Positions 835 through 7,390 of a stretch of 64,000 bases of DNA are shown piece by piece. Both the position numbers and the translations under genes were made by a program. Origin of the DNA: Catalinimonas niigatensis (GTDB lineage: Bacteria > Bacteroidota > Bacteroidia > Cytophagales > Cyclobacteriaceae); assembly GCF_030506285.1 (NCBI RefSeq), contig NZ_CP119422.1, positions 6,373,501-6,437,500 of the forward strand, written 5' to 3'. Position 1 is the first letter of the stretch. Each line of letters starts with the position of its first letter. The notes beneath the pieces are model-generated. The model saw only the letters and a program-made list of their open reading frames with translations, was not told where the DNA came from and ran no database searches.

Positions 835-1242
835 ATGGTTACAACAAGTAAAGCGCTTTTCACAGATAACTGTGCTGAAATCACTTATGATGATGCCAAT
901 GGCATTATTATAGCAAAATGGAGTGGTTTTTTGAAACTAGACAGCACAAAGAAAGGCTGTGAGAGTATGGTTGAATTTGTGAAAAAAAACAAAACCACTA
1001 AGCATTTAAGTGATCAAAGTACGCTTAAAGTCCTTTCTAAAGAAGTACAGGGTTATCTGGTCACAGAAGCTTTTCCTGCTCTAGACAAAGCTGGTCTGAG
1101 AAAGCTGGCAGTATTAGTTTCAGAAGATGTATTTGCTAAAGCTACTGTTGAAAATGTAAACACTAATGCTACGAAAATGGGTAACATTACTGTAAAAACA
1201 TTCAATACTCGCAGAGACTGTATTGATTGGTTAAATGAATAA
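835..1242 (+). CDS. Small STAS/SpoIIAA-like domain protein
   Basis: 135 residues, no signal peptide or membrane segment, so probably cytosolic. The pattern is an N-terminal strand (GIIIAKWSGF), a helix with a W-x-G-F-x-x-L-type turn, a central helical part (about residues 40-75) and a strand KLAVLVS near residue 90. This resembles the SpoIIAA/STAS-like families common in Cytophagales, where single-domain copies are thought to act in signalling. No Ser phosphorylation site could be assigned. It has its own strong terminator, so it is probably monocistronic and not part of the methyltransferase unit downstream. The fold assignment is tentative; otherwise it is a conserved hypothetical protein. 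Confidence 0.7.
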   Translation: MVTTSKALFTDNCAEITYDDANGIIIAKWSGFLKLDSTKKGCESMVEFVKKNKTTKHLSDQSTLKVLSKEVQGYLVTEAFPALDKAGLRKLAVLVSEDVFAKATVENVNTNATKMGNITVKTFNTRRDCIDWLNE

Positions 1243-1252
1243 TCCTTCTCTT

Positions 1253-1282
1253 AAACCGGAGTGTAAGCACTCCGGTTTTTTT
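1253..1282 (+). terminator. Strong rho-independent terminator
   Basis: A perfect 11-bp stem (AAACCGGAGTG with CACTCCGGTTT) closes a TAAG loop and leads into a run of seven T. It separates the small STAS-like gene from the methyltransferase gene. Confidence 0.9.
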
Positions 1283-1334: not shown

Positions 1335-2378
1335 ATGTCAGTTACAGCCCCAGTACAAGTAGATCCTTTCAAAATCATTCAGGTAGGTTTAAGTTTTTGG
1401 TCTTCCAAAACACTACTTGCTGCTACCAAACTTGGTTTATTTACTTATTTAAGTGAACAGCCGCTTACTGCCGAGCAGGTAAAATCAAAGCTCGGACTTA
1501 ATAAGGAAGGCCTATATATCCGCGACTTCTTAGATGCCCTCTACTCCATGGGATTTTTAGAAAGAATTGGAGAGGGTACAGATGCGGTCTATCACAATAC
1601 TCCCGATACTGAGATGTTTCTAGACAAAAAAAATCCTGCTTATCTGGGAGGATTTCTGGAAATGGCCAATGATCGTGAATACAAATTCTGGGGGGACCTT
1701 GAGGAAGGTTTAAAAACTGGTCAGCCCCAAAACGAAGTTAAATATACTGGAAAATCATCTTTTGAAGCGATTTATGAAAATCCTGAATCTCTGTCGCAAT
1801 TTACTGAAGCGATGTCCGGTATTCAAAAACTGAGCTTTATGGCTTTCGCAGAGAAATTCAATTTTTCTGACCATTGTACATTGTTGGATGCTGGTGGTTC
1901 GGCAGGCTTGCTTTCTGCTTTAGTTGCCCAAAAGCATGCGCATATGCAATGCACCACTTTTGACCTTCCTCAGTTGGAGCCTTTCGCAAAAGCTACAGCT
2001 GAAAAGTTAGGTGTGGCAGATCGCGTAAAGGTGCTAAATGGTGATTTCTTCAATGAGTCTTTTCCAAAAGCAGATGTAGTAACTATGGGAAATATCCTGC
2101 ACAGCTTTGACCTGAAAGCAAAAAAAATGTTGATTAGTAAGGCATATGAAGCATTGCCAGCTGGTGGCTGTATGGTAATAATAGAGATGATACTGGATAA
2201 TGAAAGAAAAGAGAACACTTTTGGCCTCCTGATGTCACTTAATATGCTGATAGAATCTGATGGAGGATTCAACTATACGCAAAATCAATTCAGGCAGTGG
2301 ACTTCCGAAGCAGGATTTAAGTCAGTAGACTTTATTCCATTAGGAGGACCGATCAGTGCTGCTGTGGCTTACAAATAA
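1335..2378 (+). CDS. SAM-dependent O-methyltransferase (dimerisation domain plus methyltransferase)
   Basis: 347 residues with the layout of the class of acetylserotonin/hydroxyneurosporene O-methyltransferases. A winged-helix dimerisation domain covers about residues 10-95. The Rossmann methyltransferase domain runs from about 180 to 340 with SAM motif I LLDAGGSAGLLS (183-194), an acidic residue ending the second strand (D210), the G-D-F-F loop (236-239) and the catalytic-base region with His256 in NILHSFD. Such enzymes methylate hydroxyl groups on small aromatic or polyketide-like molecules. It lies 18 bp upstream of the PrnB-like gene on the same strand, so the two are probably cotranscribed and may act on one metabolite (inference). 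The substrate is unknown. Confidence 0.88.
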   Translation: MSVTAPVQVDPFKIIQVGLSFWSSKTLLAATKLGLFTYLSEQPLTAEQVKSKLGLNKEGLYIRDFLDALYSMGFLERIGEGTDAVYHNTPDTEMFLDKKNPAYLGGFLEMANDREYKFWGDLEEGLKTGQPQNEVKYTGKSSFEAIYENPESLSQFTEAMSGIQKLSFMAFAEKFNFSDHCTLLDAGGSAGLLSALVAQKHAHMQCTTFDLPQLEPFAKATAEKLGVADRVKVLNGDFFNESFPKADVVTMGNILHSFDLKAKKMLISKAYEALPAGGCMVIIEMILDNERKENTFGLLMSLNMLIESDGGFNYTQNQFRQWTSEAGFKSVDFIPLGGPISAAVAYK

Positions 2379-2396
2379 CTCAGAAATCTTTTTTAT

Positions 2397-3524
2397 ATGA
2401 AGATATCTACGATTGATCTTTTTAAAATCTCCTCCTTAGAGGAGCAAAAAAGAGAAGACCTCTATATTGGTAGCCTTGATCCTTTGCAGTCAGACGAACG
2501 GCTGAGGCTTGTACCAGCATTCAACCAGGAGAGAGATACTATTGCCCTTGTTTTGATGTTAGTAGACATGCTCCCTTCAGTGACGGAAGCCACAGACTTT
2601 GATTATTTTAATGCCTGTGCCGCGATGCGAGATATAGGAATCATGCTGGGGTCCTTGAAAAGACATGGAGTAGAACCAGTGCATGTTATCCCTGAACTGG
2701 AAGAAAAACTCAACATCATAGGGAATATCACAGATCTGCCCCCCCGGGATACATTGATCCATTATGTGCGTTGGAATCCTGAAGATGCACGGCTTCGTAC
2801 TTATACGGGTACCGAAGATGAGCGCCAACTTATTAAAAGTGTACAACTTTCTATCCATCCTTTATACGAGGCTATACTGTCACTCAATGACTTGTATAGT
2901 TTGCCCTTAAGTTCACCGGAATTTGCTCCATTATGTGATAAGGTAATTACAGAGTTTGATGGCATGGTGCAAGGAGTAGTCAATGCAAAGCGAAATGTAA
3001 GCCCTCAGTATTTTGCCGAAGAGTTAAGATTCTATTTTGATCCTATCATCCTGAATGATCGCGAATATCTTGGGCCAGGTGCGGTGGAGATGCCAGTCTT
3101 TGTGTTTGACCATATTCTTTGGAACTGTGATCTGGAAGATAAGATGTATACAGAATTCAAGAAAGCATACGTTCCTTATAACCAGGCAATGATGAGAGAT
3201 TTATACTCAGCTTATGAATATTCTCCCAGTCTGGTCAATAAAGTGATCAATGAACTCATTGGGGAATATCAAGTTTCTGATATTAAACTAAGAAGTGCTA
3301 AGACCTTAGTCAAACTCTTTAATCTGCTAAAAAGCTTCCGGGCTCCCCATAAAAAACTAGCTGATGAAGCTTATAAGCATGCTGAGAAAGCAGCATATCG
3401 TGAAAAAGGAAGTGGAGGATATGAACCGGGTGTATTACAATATATACTCCAGCTTAATCTCCAGGCTTTGGACAGGCTGAAGGAAAGTATTCAGCTTTAT
3501 GAAAACAAACAAATACCCTATTGA
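2397..3524 (+). CDS. PrnB-like haem enzyme (monodechloroaminopyrrolnitrin synthase family, DUF1864)
   Basis: 375 residues, close to PrnB's usual length of about 360. Remembered PrnB landmarks appear in order: AAAMRDIG (75-81 region) then LGSLKRHG (84-91), LPPR-TL (114-120), WNP-E-D-A (126-131), YTG-x-x-DE (136-142), SPEFA (173-177), SPQ-F (202-206), YLGPGAVEMP (224-233) and RAPH (315-318). His318 matches the PrnB haem-ligand histidine, and SGGY (339-342) follows as in PrnB. PrnB, in the indoleamine/tryptophan dioxygenase superfamily, rearranges the indole ring of 7-chlorotryptophan into a phenylpyrrole. No prnA, prnC or prnD homologue is visible, so the product here is probably not pyrrolnitrin. 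It is likely cotranscribed with the upstream O-methyltransferase and is followed by a terminator. Confidence 0.9.
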   Translation: MKISTIDLFKISSLEEQKREDLYIGSLDPLQSDERLRLVPAFNQERDTIALVLMLVDMLPSVTEATDFDYFNACAAMRDIGIMLGSLKRHGVEPVHVIPELEEKLNIIGNITDLPPRDTLIHYVRWNPEDARLRTYTGTEDERQLIKSVQLSIHPLYEAILSLNDLYSLPLSSPEFAPLCDKVITEFDGMVQGVVNAKRNVSPQYFAEELRFYFDPIILNDREYLGPGAVEMPVFVFDHILWNCDLEDKMYTEFKKAYVPYNQAMMRDLYSAYEYSPSLVNKVINELIGEYQVSDIKLRSAKTLVKLFNLLKSFRAPHKKLADEAYKHAEKAAYREKGSGGYEPGVLQYILQLNLQALDRLKESIQLYENKQIPY

Positions 3525-3543
3525 AGTTTTGCCCAATGAAAGA

Positions 3544-3578
3544 AAGCCTCTGAGTATCCATTTAGAGGCTTTTTTTTG
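3544..3578 (+). terminator. Rho-independent terminator after the PrnB-like gene
   Basis: AAGCCTCT pairs with AGAGGCTT across a 12-base loop and is followed by a T tract. It closes the two-gene methyltransferase/PrnB-like unit. Confidence 0.8.
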
Positions 3579-3725: not shown

Positions 3726-4472
3726 ATGGCAGAACCGAAAAAGTTGAAATCTGAGGATAAACTTCATGGCAGTAGTTCAACCTGGGGAAAATTTCAGGAC
3801 TATATGGGTGAGTTTGTATATGGTGGCATAGATGGAAGCGTAACCACCTTTGCAGTGGTAGCTGGTGCTGCCGGTGCTGATCTCAGTGCTTCCATTGTAC
3901 TGATTCTGGGATTTGCCAACCTGATCGCTGACGGCTTTTCTATGTCAGTGGGAGCCTATCTTTCTACCAAAACAGAGCGGGATAATTATGAAAAGCACAA
4001 AAATATTGAATACTGGGAAGTAGAAAACCTGCCAGAGAGGGAAGTAGAAGAAGTGAGGGAAATCTACCAGGCCAAAGGTTTTGAAGGTGAGTTGCTGGAA
4101 CAGGTGGTAGCCAAAATTACAGAAAATAAAGATCGTTGGGTGGATGTAATGATGAAAGAAGAGCTGGAAATGACGCCTGAAAGTAAGTCTCCTCTGGCCA
4201 TAGGAATGGTTACTTTTCTGTCTTTTATTGCCATCGGGTTGATTCCTCTTTTGATCTATGTATATAGTTACATCGCAGGGATTGAAACAGAAAACACTTT
4301 TACCATTGCCAGTGTGTTGACTTCTTTGGCTTTTATAGGGATTGGATGGCTAAAAAGTTATGTTACTCAGACCAACCAGTTGCGTAGTATTTTAGAAACA
4401 CTTTCATTAGGAGCCTCTGCTGCTATATTAGCCTACTTTGTGGGAGATTTTCTGGAAAGTATTGTCCGTTGA
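3726..4472 (+). CDS. VIT1/CCC1-family metal ion transporter
   Basis: 248 residues. The N-terminal hallmark YGGIDGSVTTFAVVAGAAGA (32-51) and the following helix with N65, D69, G70, S72 and M73 are typical of VIT1/CCC1 transporters, which move Fe(II) or Mn(II) across membranes. Five hydrophobic segments are visible: two near residues 35-80 and three between about 155 and 245. The cytoplasmic loop between them (about 85-150) is rich in Glu, as expected for the metal-binding domain of plant VIT1. In bacteria the family is usually linked to iron or manganese homeostasis. It sits 46 bp upstream of the exported phosphodiesterase gene on the same strand; no functional link is evident. Confidence 0.9.
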   Translation: MAEPKKLKSEDKLHGSSSTWGKFQDYMGEFVYGGIDGSVTTFAVVAGAAGADLSASIVLILGFANLIADGFSMSVGAYLSTKTERDNYEKHKNIEYWEVENLPEREVEEVREIYQAKGFEGELLEQVVAKITENKDRWVDVMMKEELEMTPESKSPLAIGMVTFLSFIAIGLIPLLIYVYSYIAGIETENTFTIASVLTSLAFIGIGWLKSYVTQTNQLRSILETLSLGASAAILAYFVGDFLESIVR

Positions 4473-5848: not shown

Positions 5849-7390
5849 TTACTTTGGTACCACAAAAGCTTCCCAGGACTCCAGGTGATGCCCTTTAAGC
5901 ACACGGGGAAACTTATGTTGACCACCGACTTTGCCTTGCATTTTCATCCAGTTAATAAACGCCTCATGCGGTAGAATTGTGACTTTTATTTCCTTCAGCG
6001 CGGCATTTCTTTCGGTACGATAATCATCATTAAGGTATTTTAGATATCCGTCCAGCTTTTGTCTGACTGTTTCTTCGCTCACCGCTTTGTCAATGGCTAA
6101 ATACCAATGATGCCCAAAGAGGTTGCCATGCTTTATGCCTGTCACAGTGTATTCGTTGATTTCCGCATTCAGCTCTTCAGAAAGCATTTGTGTGGCGCGG
6201 TTCATATTGTCAACTGATAAATGTTCACCGCAGAGACTCAGAAAATGTTTGGTGCGTCCGATGATGATAATTTGTGTGTCCTGCACATCGGTAAACTTGA
6301 TCACATCGCCAATCAAATAGCGCCAGGCTCCCGCACATGTGCTTAACAGAAGTGCATATTCCTTTCCTTCCTCTACCTGATGAATCATGAAGGTTTCAGG
6401 ATCTGCTACTAATTCGCCATCCGCTGTAAAATTACGCTCGTTGAAGGGAACAAACTCAAAGAAAATTCCGCTGTTGAGCACCATCTGCATAGACTTTACA
6501 TTAGGCTTGTTTTGGAAAGCAATAAATCCTTCAGAAGCCAGATAAGTTTCTATATAGGTGAGAGGCCTGGCAGTAAGGCGTTCAAAGCTCTTCAGATAAG
6601 GAGTAAGCGACACGCCCCCGTGAACGAAAATACTAAGATTAGGCCAGATATCGTGGATTGTTTTTACACCATAATGATCAATGATTTTCTCCAGTAGCAT
6701 CTGCAACCAGGCCGGTACTCCCACGATCACCCCGATATCCCATTTGTAAGCATTCAGCATAATTTCATCCAGCTTCTTTGCCCAGTCTTTTTCCCGGGAT
6801 ATTTTGTGGCCCGGTTTATAGAAACTATAAAACCAATAGGGTATACGCTTGCAGGTAATGCCGCTCAGGTCGCCTTCATAACCATATTTGTATCTATTCA
6901 GGGCAGTACTGCCGCCAAGCATCAGTATACCTTTTTGAAAGAGGCTTTCCGGTAAATCGTATTGGTTGAGGGAGAGCATCTGCCGTACACTCACCTTGTT
7001 GATGGCCTTCAACATATCTTTGGTTACGGGAATGTACTTGGAGGCAGCTTCTGAAGTACCTGAACTCAATGCGAAGTATTTTACCCTATCCGGCCAACTA
7101 ATATTCTTATATCCTTCATGACTTAGATGCCACCACTGAGTATGCATTTTATTGTAATCATGGATAGGTATATTTTGCTTATAGACCGTATAAAAAGCTT
7201 CCGTATCCAGTGAATGAAAGTGATCCAATAATCGCTTAAAATGGTAATGTTGGCCAAAATGAGTTTCACGGGCAGTAAAAAGCAACTGTCTTAGCTGCTC
7301 TTTCTGCACATCAAAAGGCTGTTTATGAGGATGCTCCACTGCTTGCCTAAGTTGGAGCCCTTTCTTCACGATCTTTCCTAAAATCGGCAT
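5849..7390 (-). CDS. GH3-family acyl-acid amido synthetase
   Basis: 513 residues, the usual length for bacterial GH3-auxin-responsive-promoter family proteins. The adenylation motif SSGTSEAASKYIPVT lies near residues 106-120, and the ATP/acyl site motif Y-x-x-S-E-G-F-I-A is near residue 285. The motif Y-L-I-G-D-V-I-K-F near 360 matches the third ANL-type signature of plant GH3 enzymes, which conjugate carboxylic acids such as jasmonate or indole-acetate to amino acids through an acyl-adenylate. Physiological substrates of bacterial homologues are largely unknown. No signal peptide, so cytosolic. It is transcribed alone, divergently from the metal-resistance operon. Confidence 0.88.
   Translation of the reverse strand: MPILGKIVKKGLQLRQAVEHPHKQPFDVQKEQLRQLLFTARETHFGQHYHFKRLLDHFHSLDTEAFYTVYKQNIPIHDYNKMHTQWWHLSHEGYKNISWPDRVKYFALSSGTSEAASKYIPVTKDMLKAINKVSVRQMLSLNQYDLPESLFQKGILMLGGSTALNRYKYGYEGDLSGITCKRIPYWFYSFYKPGHKISREKDWAKKLDEIMLNAYKWDIGVIVGVPAWLQMLLEKIIDHYGVKTIHDIWPNLSIFVHGGVSLTPYLKSFERLTARPLTYIETYLASEGFIAFQNKPNVKSMQMVLNSGIFFEFVPFNERNFTADGELVADPETFMIHQVEEGKEYALLLSTCAGAWRYLIGDVIKFTDVQDTQIIIIGRTKHFLSLCGEHLSVDNMNRATQMLSEELNAEINEYTVTGIKHGNLFGHHWYLAIDKAVSEETVRQKLDGYLKYLNDDYRTERNAALKEIKVTILPHEAFINWMKMQGKVGGQHKFPRVLKGHHLESWEAFVVPK

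Follow-up and report, generated by a model that had tools for sequence, protein, structure and literature searches.

What does a PrnB-like heme enzyme do in a bacterium whose genome yields no match to the pyrrolnitrin proteins PrnA and PrnD? The question is raised by a stretch of 64,000 nucleotides from Catalinimonas niigatensis (assembly GCF_030506285.1, contig NZ_CP119422.1, positions 6,373,501 to 6,437,500 of the forward strand), hereafter the window, whose genome is labeled G000. Here a methyltransferase gene is followed by a prnB-like gene, and the initial annotation had described the two as a clean unit. Both open reading frames and the 18-bp spacing between them are present as claimed. 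The pair has, however, a more constant companion, a small upstream gene that we call c0. Our best explanation, to which we give a probability of roughly 0.55, is a halogen-free tryptophan-oxidizing cassette consisting of the PrnB-like enzyme, a dedicated STAS-fold partner that would act as a carrier or regulator, and an optional methyltransferase. The features of the locus are as follows.

835..1242, plus strand: c0, a SpoIIAA/STAS-like protein of 135 amino acids (aa), by AlphaFold and Foldseek; found upstream in 26/26 intact prnB loci
1253..1278, plus strand: hairpin terminator in the gap between c0 and the methyltransferase gene, 11-bp stem and T run (hairpin scan)
1335..2378, plus strand: COMT-type S-adenosylmethionine methyltransferase, 347 aa (PF00891 and PF08100; best PDB chain RedM, 8tji)
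2379..2396, plus strand: 18-bp spacer between the methyltransferase gene and prnB (read off the sequence)
2397..3524, plus strand: prnB-like gene, 375 aa, predicted histidine-ligated heme enzyme of the IDO/TDO-type superfamily (PF08933; matches to 2v7i and 9dfg)
3348..3350, plus strand: codon of His318, predicted proximal heme ligand (aligned to H313 of the Pseudomonas fluorescens enzyme; invariant)
about 3543..3577, plus strand: closing hairpin and T run after the prnB stop codon (read from the sequence by eye)

A small gene upstream of prnB

All 17 prnB loci of the first survey round had just one neighbor in common, and this was a gene of roughly 130 codons lying upstream of prnB (835–1242 in the window) rather than the methyltransferase gene. 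A profile was made from these 17 copies and then tested on the loci found later by a search of the order, where it matched upstream of all nine intact prnB genes, from five genera and on the same strand. In total, c0 precedes prnB on the same strand in 26/26 intact Bacteroidota loci from 16 genera (26/27 if the interrupted prnB of genome G922 is counted), although these are not 26 independent events. Of the 21 loci with no intervening methyltransferase gene, 18 have a gap of at most 36 bp between c0 and prnB, and the others have gaps of 77, 84, and 532 bp; these values depend on the start codon chosen and were measured from the longest open reading frame. Six residues (H57, S59, L64, K65, L67, and Q72) are kept in every linked copy, and 15 of the 25 unlinked members of the c0 family that were read carry N-D-N and then G-P-W at the positions of this signature.

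The genes flanking c0 and prnB form several unrelated sets, each shared by related genomes, and c0 and PrnB are correlated in their pairwise distances with r = 0.815, a value reached in 0 of 5000 permutations. These observations bear on one alternative, namely that the three genes are mere neighbors with no common function. Such an arrangement would fit the terminator that stands after c0 and the fact that c0-like and methyltransferase genes also occur on their own; linkage in 26/26 loci over unrelated flanking sets, the co-divergence, and an apparent transfer of the whole trio into another family speak against it, and we consider it strongly disfavored. A nos (N2O reductase) cluster around c0 and prnB had been guessed from protein lengths at loci L032, L034, L035, and L038; Pfam assignments at L032 gave uvrB, a shikimate dehydrogenase N-terminal domain, and capsule-type genes, and the guess was discarded.

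The sample behind these counts was drawn from PF08933 matches above the Pfam cut-off, which occur in 15/196 genomes of the window's GTDB family (3/3 of its genus), 3/395 class-wide with the window's own genome included, 2/87 in family f43, and 14/390 in the order. The sets overlap and amount to 27 distinct Bacteroidota genomes. Dropped before counting were L024 (Hymenobacter), a chance fragment; L039 and L040 (G028 and G100), below the cut-off at 18 to 19% identity and with no c0 seen in the stretch read; L116 (G831), a 224-aa partial protein below the cut-off and without c0; and L115 (G922), which is above the cut-off but has an interrupted prnB. The G922 gene (L115, 7459–8636, minus strand) contains a frame break and may be in decay or the result of misassembly. 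The very divergent proteins at L039 (6973–8193) and L040 (5514–6638), which come from one genus, keep FRxxH and GTGG-like motifs, and their neighborhood is common to both genomes and unlike that of the other prnB loci.

A probable unchlorinated substrate for the PrnB-like enzyme

The PrnB-like protein matches PF08933 with 169.3 bits (E = 1.5e-49; cut-off 27) and P. fluorescens PrnB (PfPrnB; 2v7i) with 258.9 bits over residues 24–364. It is a full-length member of the family, in line with the landmarks noted by the initial annotation. It is the single PF08933 match in its genome, and no prnB relative was found among 50,697 phage records. With the PrnB proteins of the Pseudomonas, Burkholderia, and Azotobacter pyrrolnitrin clusters (2v7i; plasmid loci L041 and L044), it shares the Pfam family, the full length, the heme histidine, the GSGG loop, and the GPGAVEMP segment, at 38 to 40% identity to the L041 and L044 proteins; it differs from them in having Tyr123 instead of Val117, in its linkage to c0, and in a genome without a PrnA or PrnD match. 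Counted along the pairwise alignment, H318 falls opposite H313 of PfPrnB, the heme ligand of that enzyme. R315, H318, Y326, and S339 are invariant in 30/30 aligned family members, in support of the heme histidine named by the initial annotation.

The presence of PrnB in Bacteroidota is already known: FbPrnB (9dfg), from a Flavobacteriales bacterium, has been crystallized (PMC11791213). The window protein scores 163.4 bits against FbPrnB, compared with 259 against PfPrnB, and shares its pocket tyrosine and closing-loop serine. By counting along the alignments, S339 corresponds to S332 of PfPrnB and Ser319 of FbPrnB, and Y123 to Val117 of PfPrnB and Tyr104 of FbPrnB. In FbPrnB, the closing-loop Ser319 is described as holding the substrate carboxylate and the tyrosine as narrowing the pocket (PMC11791213). 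The serine is present in all 30 members, and the tyrosine in 26/26 Bacteroidota rows versus 0/2 prnACD-type rows, which have valine; both Streptomyces rows also have tyrosine. These Streptomyces genes are divergent members of the PrnB family on plasmids, one beside a flavin-dependent oxidoreductase gene and a ketosynthase-like gene (L042, 9959–14114) and the other beside a GNAT gene (L043, 9965–11958), without annotated prnACD neighbors or c0.

Whether the rest of the pyrrolnitrin pathway lies elsewhere in the genome was addressed with protein queries. In a search at E ≤ 1e-5 that had no internal positive control, PrnA of the Azotobacter pyrrolnitrin cluster (L041) matched neither G000 nor any of the 26 other prnB-bearing Bacteroidota genomes (0/27); in a separate local search, this query does find Burkholderia PrnA, at 95%. 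The PrnD query gave nothing in G000 at this threshold and found its control plasmid at 95%, with weak partial matches (28–31% identity) in 7 of the 26 Bacteroidota genomes. The lack of PrnA and PrnD that had been noted for the window therefore extends genome-wide at E ≤ 1e-5, with PrnC covered by the PF04820 profile only and not by a query.

Because the genome has no PrnA match, L-tryptophan is the likely substrate. In PrnB, tryptophan is reported to be bound through its amine to the heme iron, and the enzyme is described as accepting unchlorinated tryptophan as an alternative substrate (PMC11791213). We therefore picture a three-gene cassette, c0-methyltransferase-prnB, built around a Bacteroidota PrnB lineage that would work without chlorination. 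The enzyme, with heme presumably bound through His318, most likely takes L-tryptophan itself, its carboxylate gripped by the GSGG loop, and would then oxidatively rearrange or oxygenate the indole; an aminophenylpyrrole or an oxygenated indole would be the likely product, which the methyltransferase could optionally tailor.

An optional methyltransferase in a probably mobile cassette

The methyltransferase matches PF00891 (Methyltransf_2; 129.4 bits) and the dimerization domain PF08100 (52.4 bits), and its best PDB chain is RedM of reductasporine (8tji; 270.2 bits), with which it shares the substrate-side motifs FxxxM and MxxxM. RedM is described as dimethylating the pyrrolinium nitrogen of a bisindole and as having Ser253 at the position of the catalytic histidine, the S253H variant being inactive (PMC10784701). 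The window enzyme has a histidine there instead: counted along the alignment, a catalytic-type histidine occupies RedM position 253 within an ILHSFD motif in 7/7 linked copies. Since RedM has a serine at this position and loses activity on S253H substitution, the window enzyme is not simply a RedM; O-methylation is a fair default, with N-methylation as the other possibility.

As for whether the methyltransferase neighbor is conserved in relatives, it is recurrent, adjoining prnB in 7/26 intact loci from three GTDB families, but the constant neighbor is c0. The order c0-methyltransferase-prnB is found in the three genus members, in G715 (family f86), and in G737 (f82), whereas in G675 and G688 (f82) the methyltransferase gene is divergent and lies beside c0. 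In the window's family, homologues occur at 22 places in 20 genomes, 19 of them beyond the genus at 50–59% identity; no prnB lies near any of the 12 of these 19 that were read, and the other seven are in genomes without prnB. A tree was built from 19 rows (12 unlinked loci, three of the window genus, and four linked loci from the order search), leaving out G042, G052, G083, G085, G111, G115, and G188, none of which is a prnB genome and of which G083 and G115 had their methyltransferase motif read. All seven linked copies fall within a nine-row clade (support 100/99), both unlinked members of which are in G013, a genome with its prnB at another place. The linked state requires two label changes on this tree, and a strict single origin of the linkage is thus unsupported. 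The nine-row clade has ILHSF, except for one G013 copy without the histidine, where its 10 sisters have ILHDW; MSLNM is kept in all 19 rows.

A methyltransferase of this kind also fits an alternative reaction, in which the PrnB-like enzyme would be a MarE-like monooxygenase rather than a rearranging enzyme, hydroxylating tryptophan or indole so that the methyltransferase caps the new hydroxyl. The known product of PrnB is non-oxygenated (PMC11791213), whereas the methyltransferase retains a histidine of the O-methylating type (PMC10784701) that is absent from RedM; monooxygenation is known in the superfamily from MarE and IDO (PMC12921851); and Tyr123, which replaces the prnACD-type valine in every Bacteroidota row and in both Streptomyces rows, has a pocket-narrowing counterpart in FbPrnB. 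Yet the PrnB landmark residues tested are retained, 19/26 loci have no linked methyltransferase, and FbPrnB, with the same tyrosine, still binds tryptophan through its amine like PfPrnB (PMC11791213). We regard strict monooxygenation as possible but unlikely, and retain the halogen-free cassette, with either outcome at the indole, as the better account.

The cassette also appears to have moved. G715 belongs to another GTDB family, yet its proteins share 76% (c0), 83% (methyltransferase), and 74% (PrnB) identity with their window counterparts. The G715 PrnB groups with the window protein inside the genus (support 97/92), as does its methyltransferase (83/87), and in the c0 tree G715 falls just outside the genus. 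The G+C content in G715 is 46.6% for the methyltransferase gene and 47.9% for prnB within a locus of 54.7%, with c0 at 42.2%; in the window, the values are 40.6% and 40.8% within a locus of 42.3%, and c0 is G+C-poor here too (35.3%). Based on the G715 trees and the low G+C content of its methyltransferase and prnB genes, the trio seems to have been transferred as one cassette.

To call the pair a clean two-gene unit falls short of the whole. The 18-bp spacing agrees with that description, but the conserved partner c0 is parted from the pair by the terminator at 1253–1278, and a strong hairpin separates c0 from the methyltransferase gene in 3/3 genus members. Given this hairpin, transcripts of c0 may outnumber those of the enzyme genes, which would be expressed through read-through or from a promoter of their own. 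A sigma-70 promoter scan, which does not cover Bacteroidota promoters, gave 6 sites against 10.3 expected. The closing terminator can be read by eye as a hairpin with a T run at about 3543–3577, but is missing from the hairpin scan, whose loops are limited to 3–8 bases. Downstream of prnB lie a VIT-family gene (3726–4472, plus strand), a homologue of which is also near prnB in L030, and a gene for a GH3-family protein (5849–7390, minus strand), which ends 2.3 kb downstream of prnB and is not a neighbor shared with the other two genus loci over the stretches read there. In plants, GH3 enzymes conjugate auxin and jasmonate.

The role of c0

The window c0 passes none of the Pfam cut-offs. It matches weakly to DUF7793 (15.1 bits, E = 0.024), the SpoIIAA-like family PF11964 (14.2 bits against a gathering score of 25, E = 0.074), and DUF1508 (13.5 bits, E = 0.071). 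Among family members, PF11964 is the most frequent weak match (7/19 at E ≤ 1, the best being 0.0092). When members were scanned against Pfam and NCBIfam, all matches were either below the cut-off or weak and scattered (lowest E about 0.009), and a PDB sequence search with the family gave none at E ≤ 1. AlphaFold yielded a confident model (mean predicted local distance difference test score 87.3). Its best PDB match by Foldseek is the SpoIIAA-like DUF3478 protein 2q3l (E = 9.2e-6, template modeling scores 0.61/0.64, 16% identity), the top matches also including anti-sigma antagonists, and c0 is thus predicted to have the SpoIIAA/STAS fold of 2q3l, 2ook, and the STAS anti-sigma antagonists. It differs from 2q3l and 2ook in its low identity (12–16%), in falling below the PF11964 gathering score, and in the linkage of its gene to a heme enzyme. 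The Shewanella proteins 2q3l and 2ook have been proposed to be carriers of nonpolar molecules or interfacially activated enzymes, and the phosphorylated serine of SpoIIAA is placed where helix 2 begins (PMC2954212). The linked c0 copies have a serine just before helix 2 in 24/26 cases and an alanine in 2/26.

Another alternative is a sensory role. O2-sensing stressosomes have a heme-globin/STAS make-up. As a sensor, the PrnB heme would bind tryptophan, O2, or NO, and the STAS-fold protein would pass this signal on to a network of the anti-sigma or stressosome-like kind. The predicted fold and the serine in the place of the SpoIIAA phosphoserine (PMC2954212) suit this idea, and O2-sensing stressosomes have been described (PMC4976288, PMC9237108), but alanine replaces the serine in two linked copies, a Pfam scan of 40 neighbor proteins found neither an anti-sigma factor nor a serine kinase family (one protein, in L032, is capsule-type and tyrosine-kinase-like), and a tailoring-type methyltransferase moves with the cassette. 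We judge a sensor improbable. For the halogen-free cassette, we infer instead that c0 is a dedicated partner of PrnB, most likely a carrier of the nonpolar substrate or product, or else a switch that turns PrnB on.

How exclusive this partnership is can be gauged from the c0 family. For the 15 loci of the family from the first round, the c0 profile gives the prnB-adjacent copy at least 184 bits and the best other copies 175, 170, 163, and 158 bits, the profile being made mostly from linked copies, which favors these in scoring. The window's genome has one family copy at E ≤ 0.01. The 170-bit copy is a second c0-family gene beside prnB in G101, where two such genes flank it (L034, 6926–7378 and 8815–9225) and the second lacks H57 and S59. 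G019 likewise has a second c0-family gene on the same contig without these two residues (L035, 9608–9991 and 17088–17483). The 175- and 163-bit copies, of G138 and G030 (L091, 6970–7392; L092, 7311–7724), lie between aroE-like and uvrB genes, and their genus mate G101 has c0 and prnB where they have a c0-like gene alone.

A number of points weigh against our explanation. The G138 and G030 copies, whether remnants or genes in their own right, argue against strict exclusivity; G138 and a second copy in G159 carry the signature histidine and serine unlinked; and a c0-family member (E ≤ 0.001) occurs in 101/196 family genomes, many without prnB. No c0 match was found at the two prnACD-type or the two Streptomyces plasmid loci, nor in the 16 kb read around the interrupted prnB of G922, the rest of that genome not having been searched for c0. 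Shared species history explains part of the co-divergence of c0 and PrnB, and with a terminator hairpin parting it from the other genes in the window genus, c0 need not be co-transcribed with them. PF04820 (Trp_halogenase; cut-off 21 bits) is passed at three partial places in the window's genome (40.4, 34.6, and 24.4 bits), but also in 5/14 control genomes, E. coli included, and so says little. The main objection to an obligatory activator is that prnA-D alone are reported to be sufficient in E. coli (PMC11791213) and that prnB beside prnA and a flavin reductase yields a putative product in Corynebacterium glutamicum (PMC11112847), which argues that proteobacterial PrnB needs no c0. If c0 is required, then it is so for the Bacteroidota PrnB lineage only.

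Within this lineage, a stronger version can be put forward tentatively, and with clearly less confidence than the cassette itself: c0 would be a dedicated activating or substrate-handling partner supplying a function missing from isolated PrnB and, with the methyltransferase, would make up a halogen-free tryptophan pathway that is mobile across Bacteroidota. As of December 2024, in vitro PrnB activity had been reported only with fresh crude extract and not with isolated enzyme, and partner proteins were named by the authors among the possible missing components (PMC11791213). We found no description of the linkage of c0 and prnB in the literature searched, subscription papers being outside its reach. 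Standing beside all 26 intact Bacteroidota prnB genes that were examined, c0 is a concrete and testable candidate for the missing PrnB component. If the partner reading is true, it would be, to our knowledge, the first accessory protein for any PrnB. More broadly, the cassette hints at products derived from tryptophan with no halogenase involved, which halogenase-first searches would overlook.

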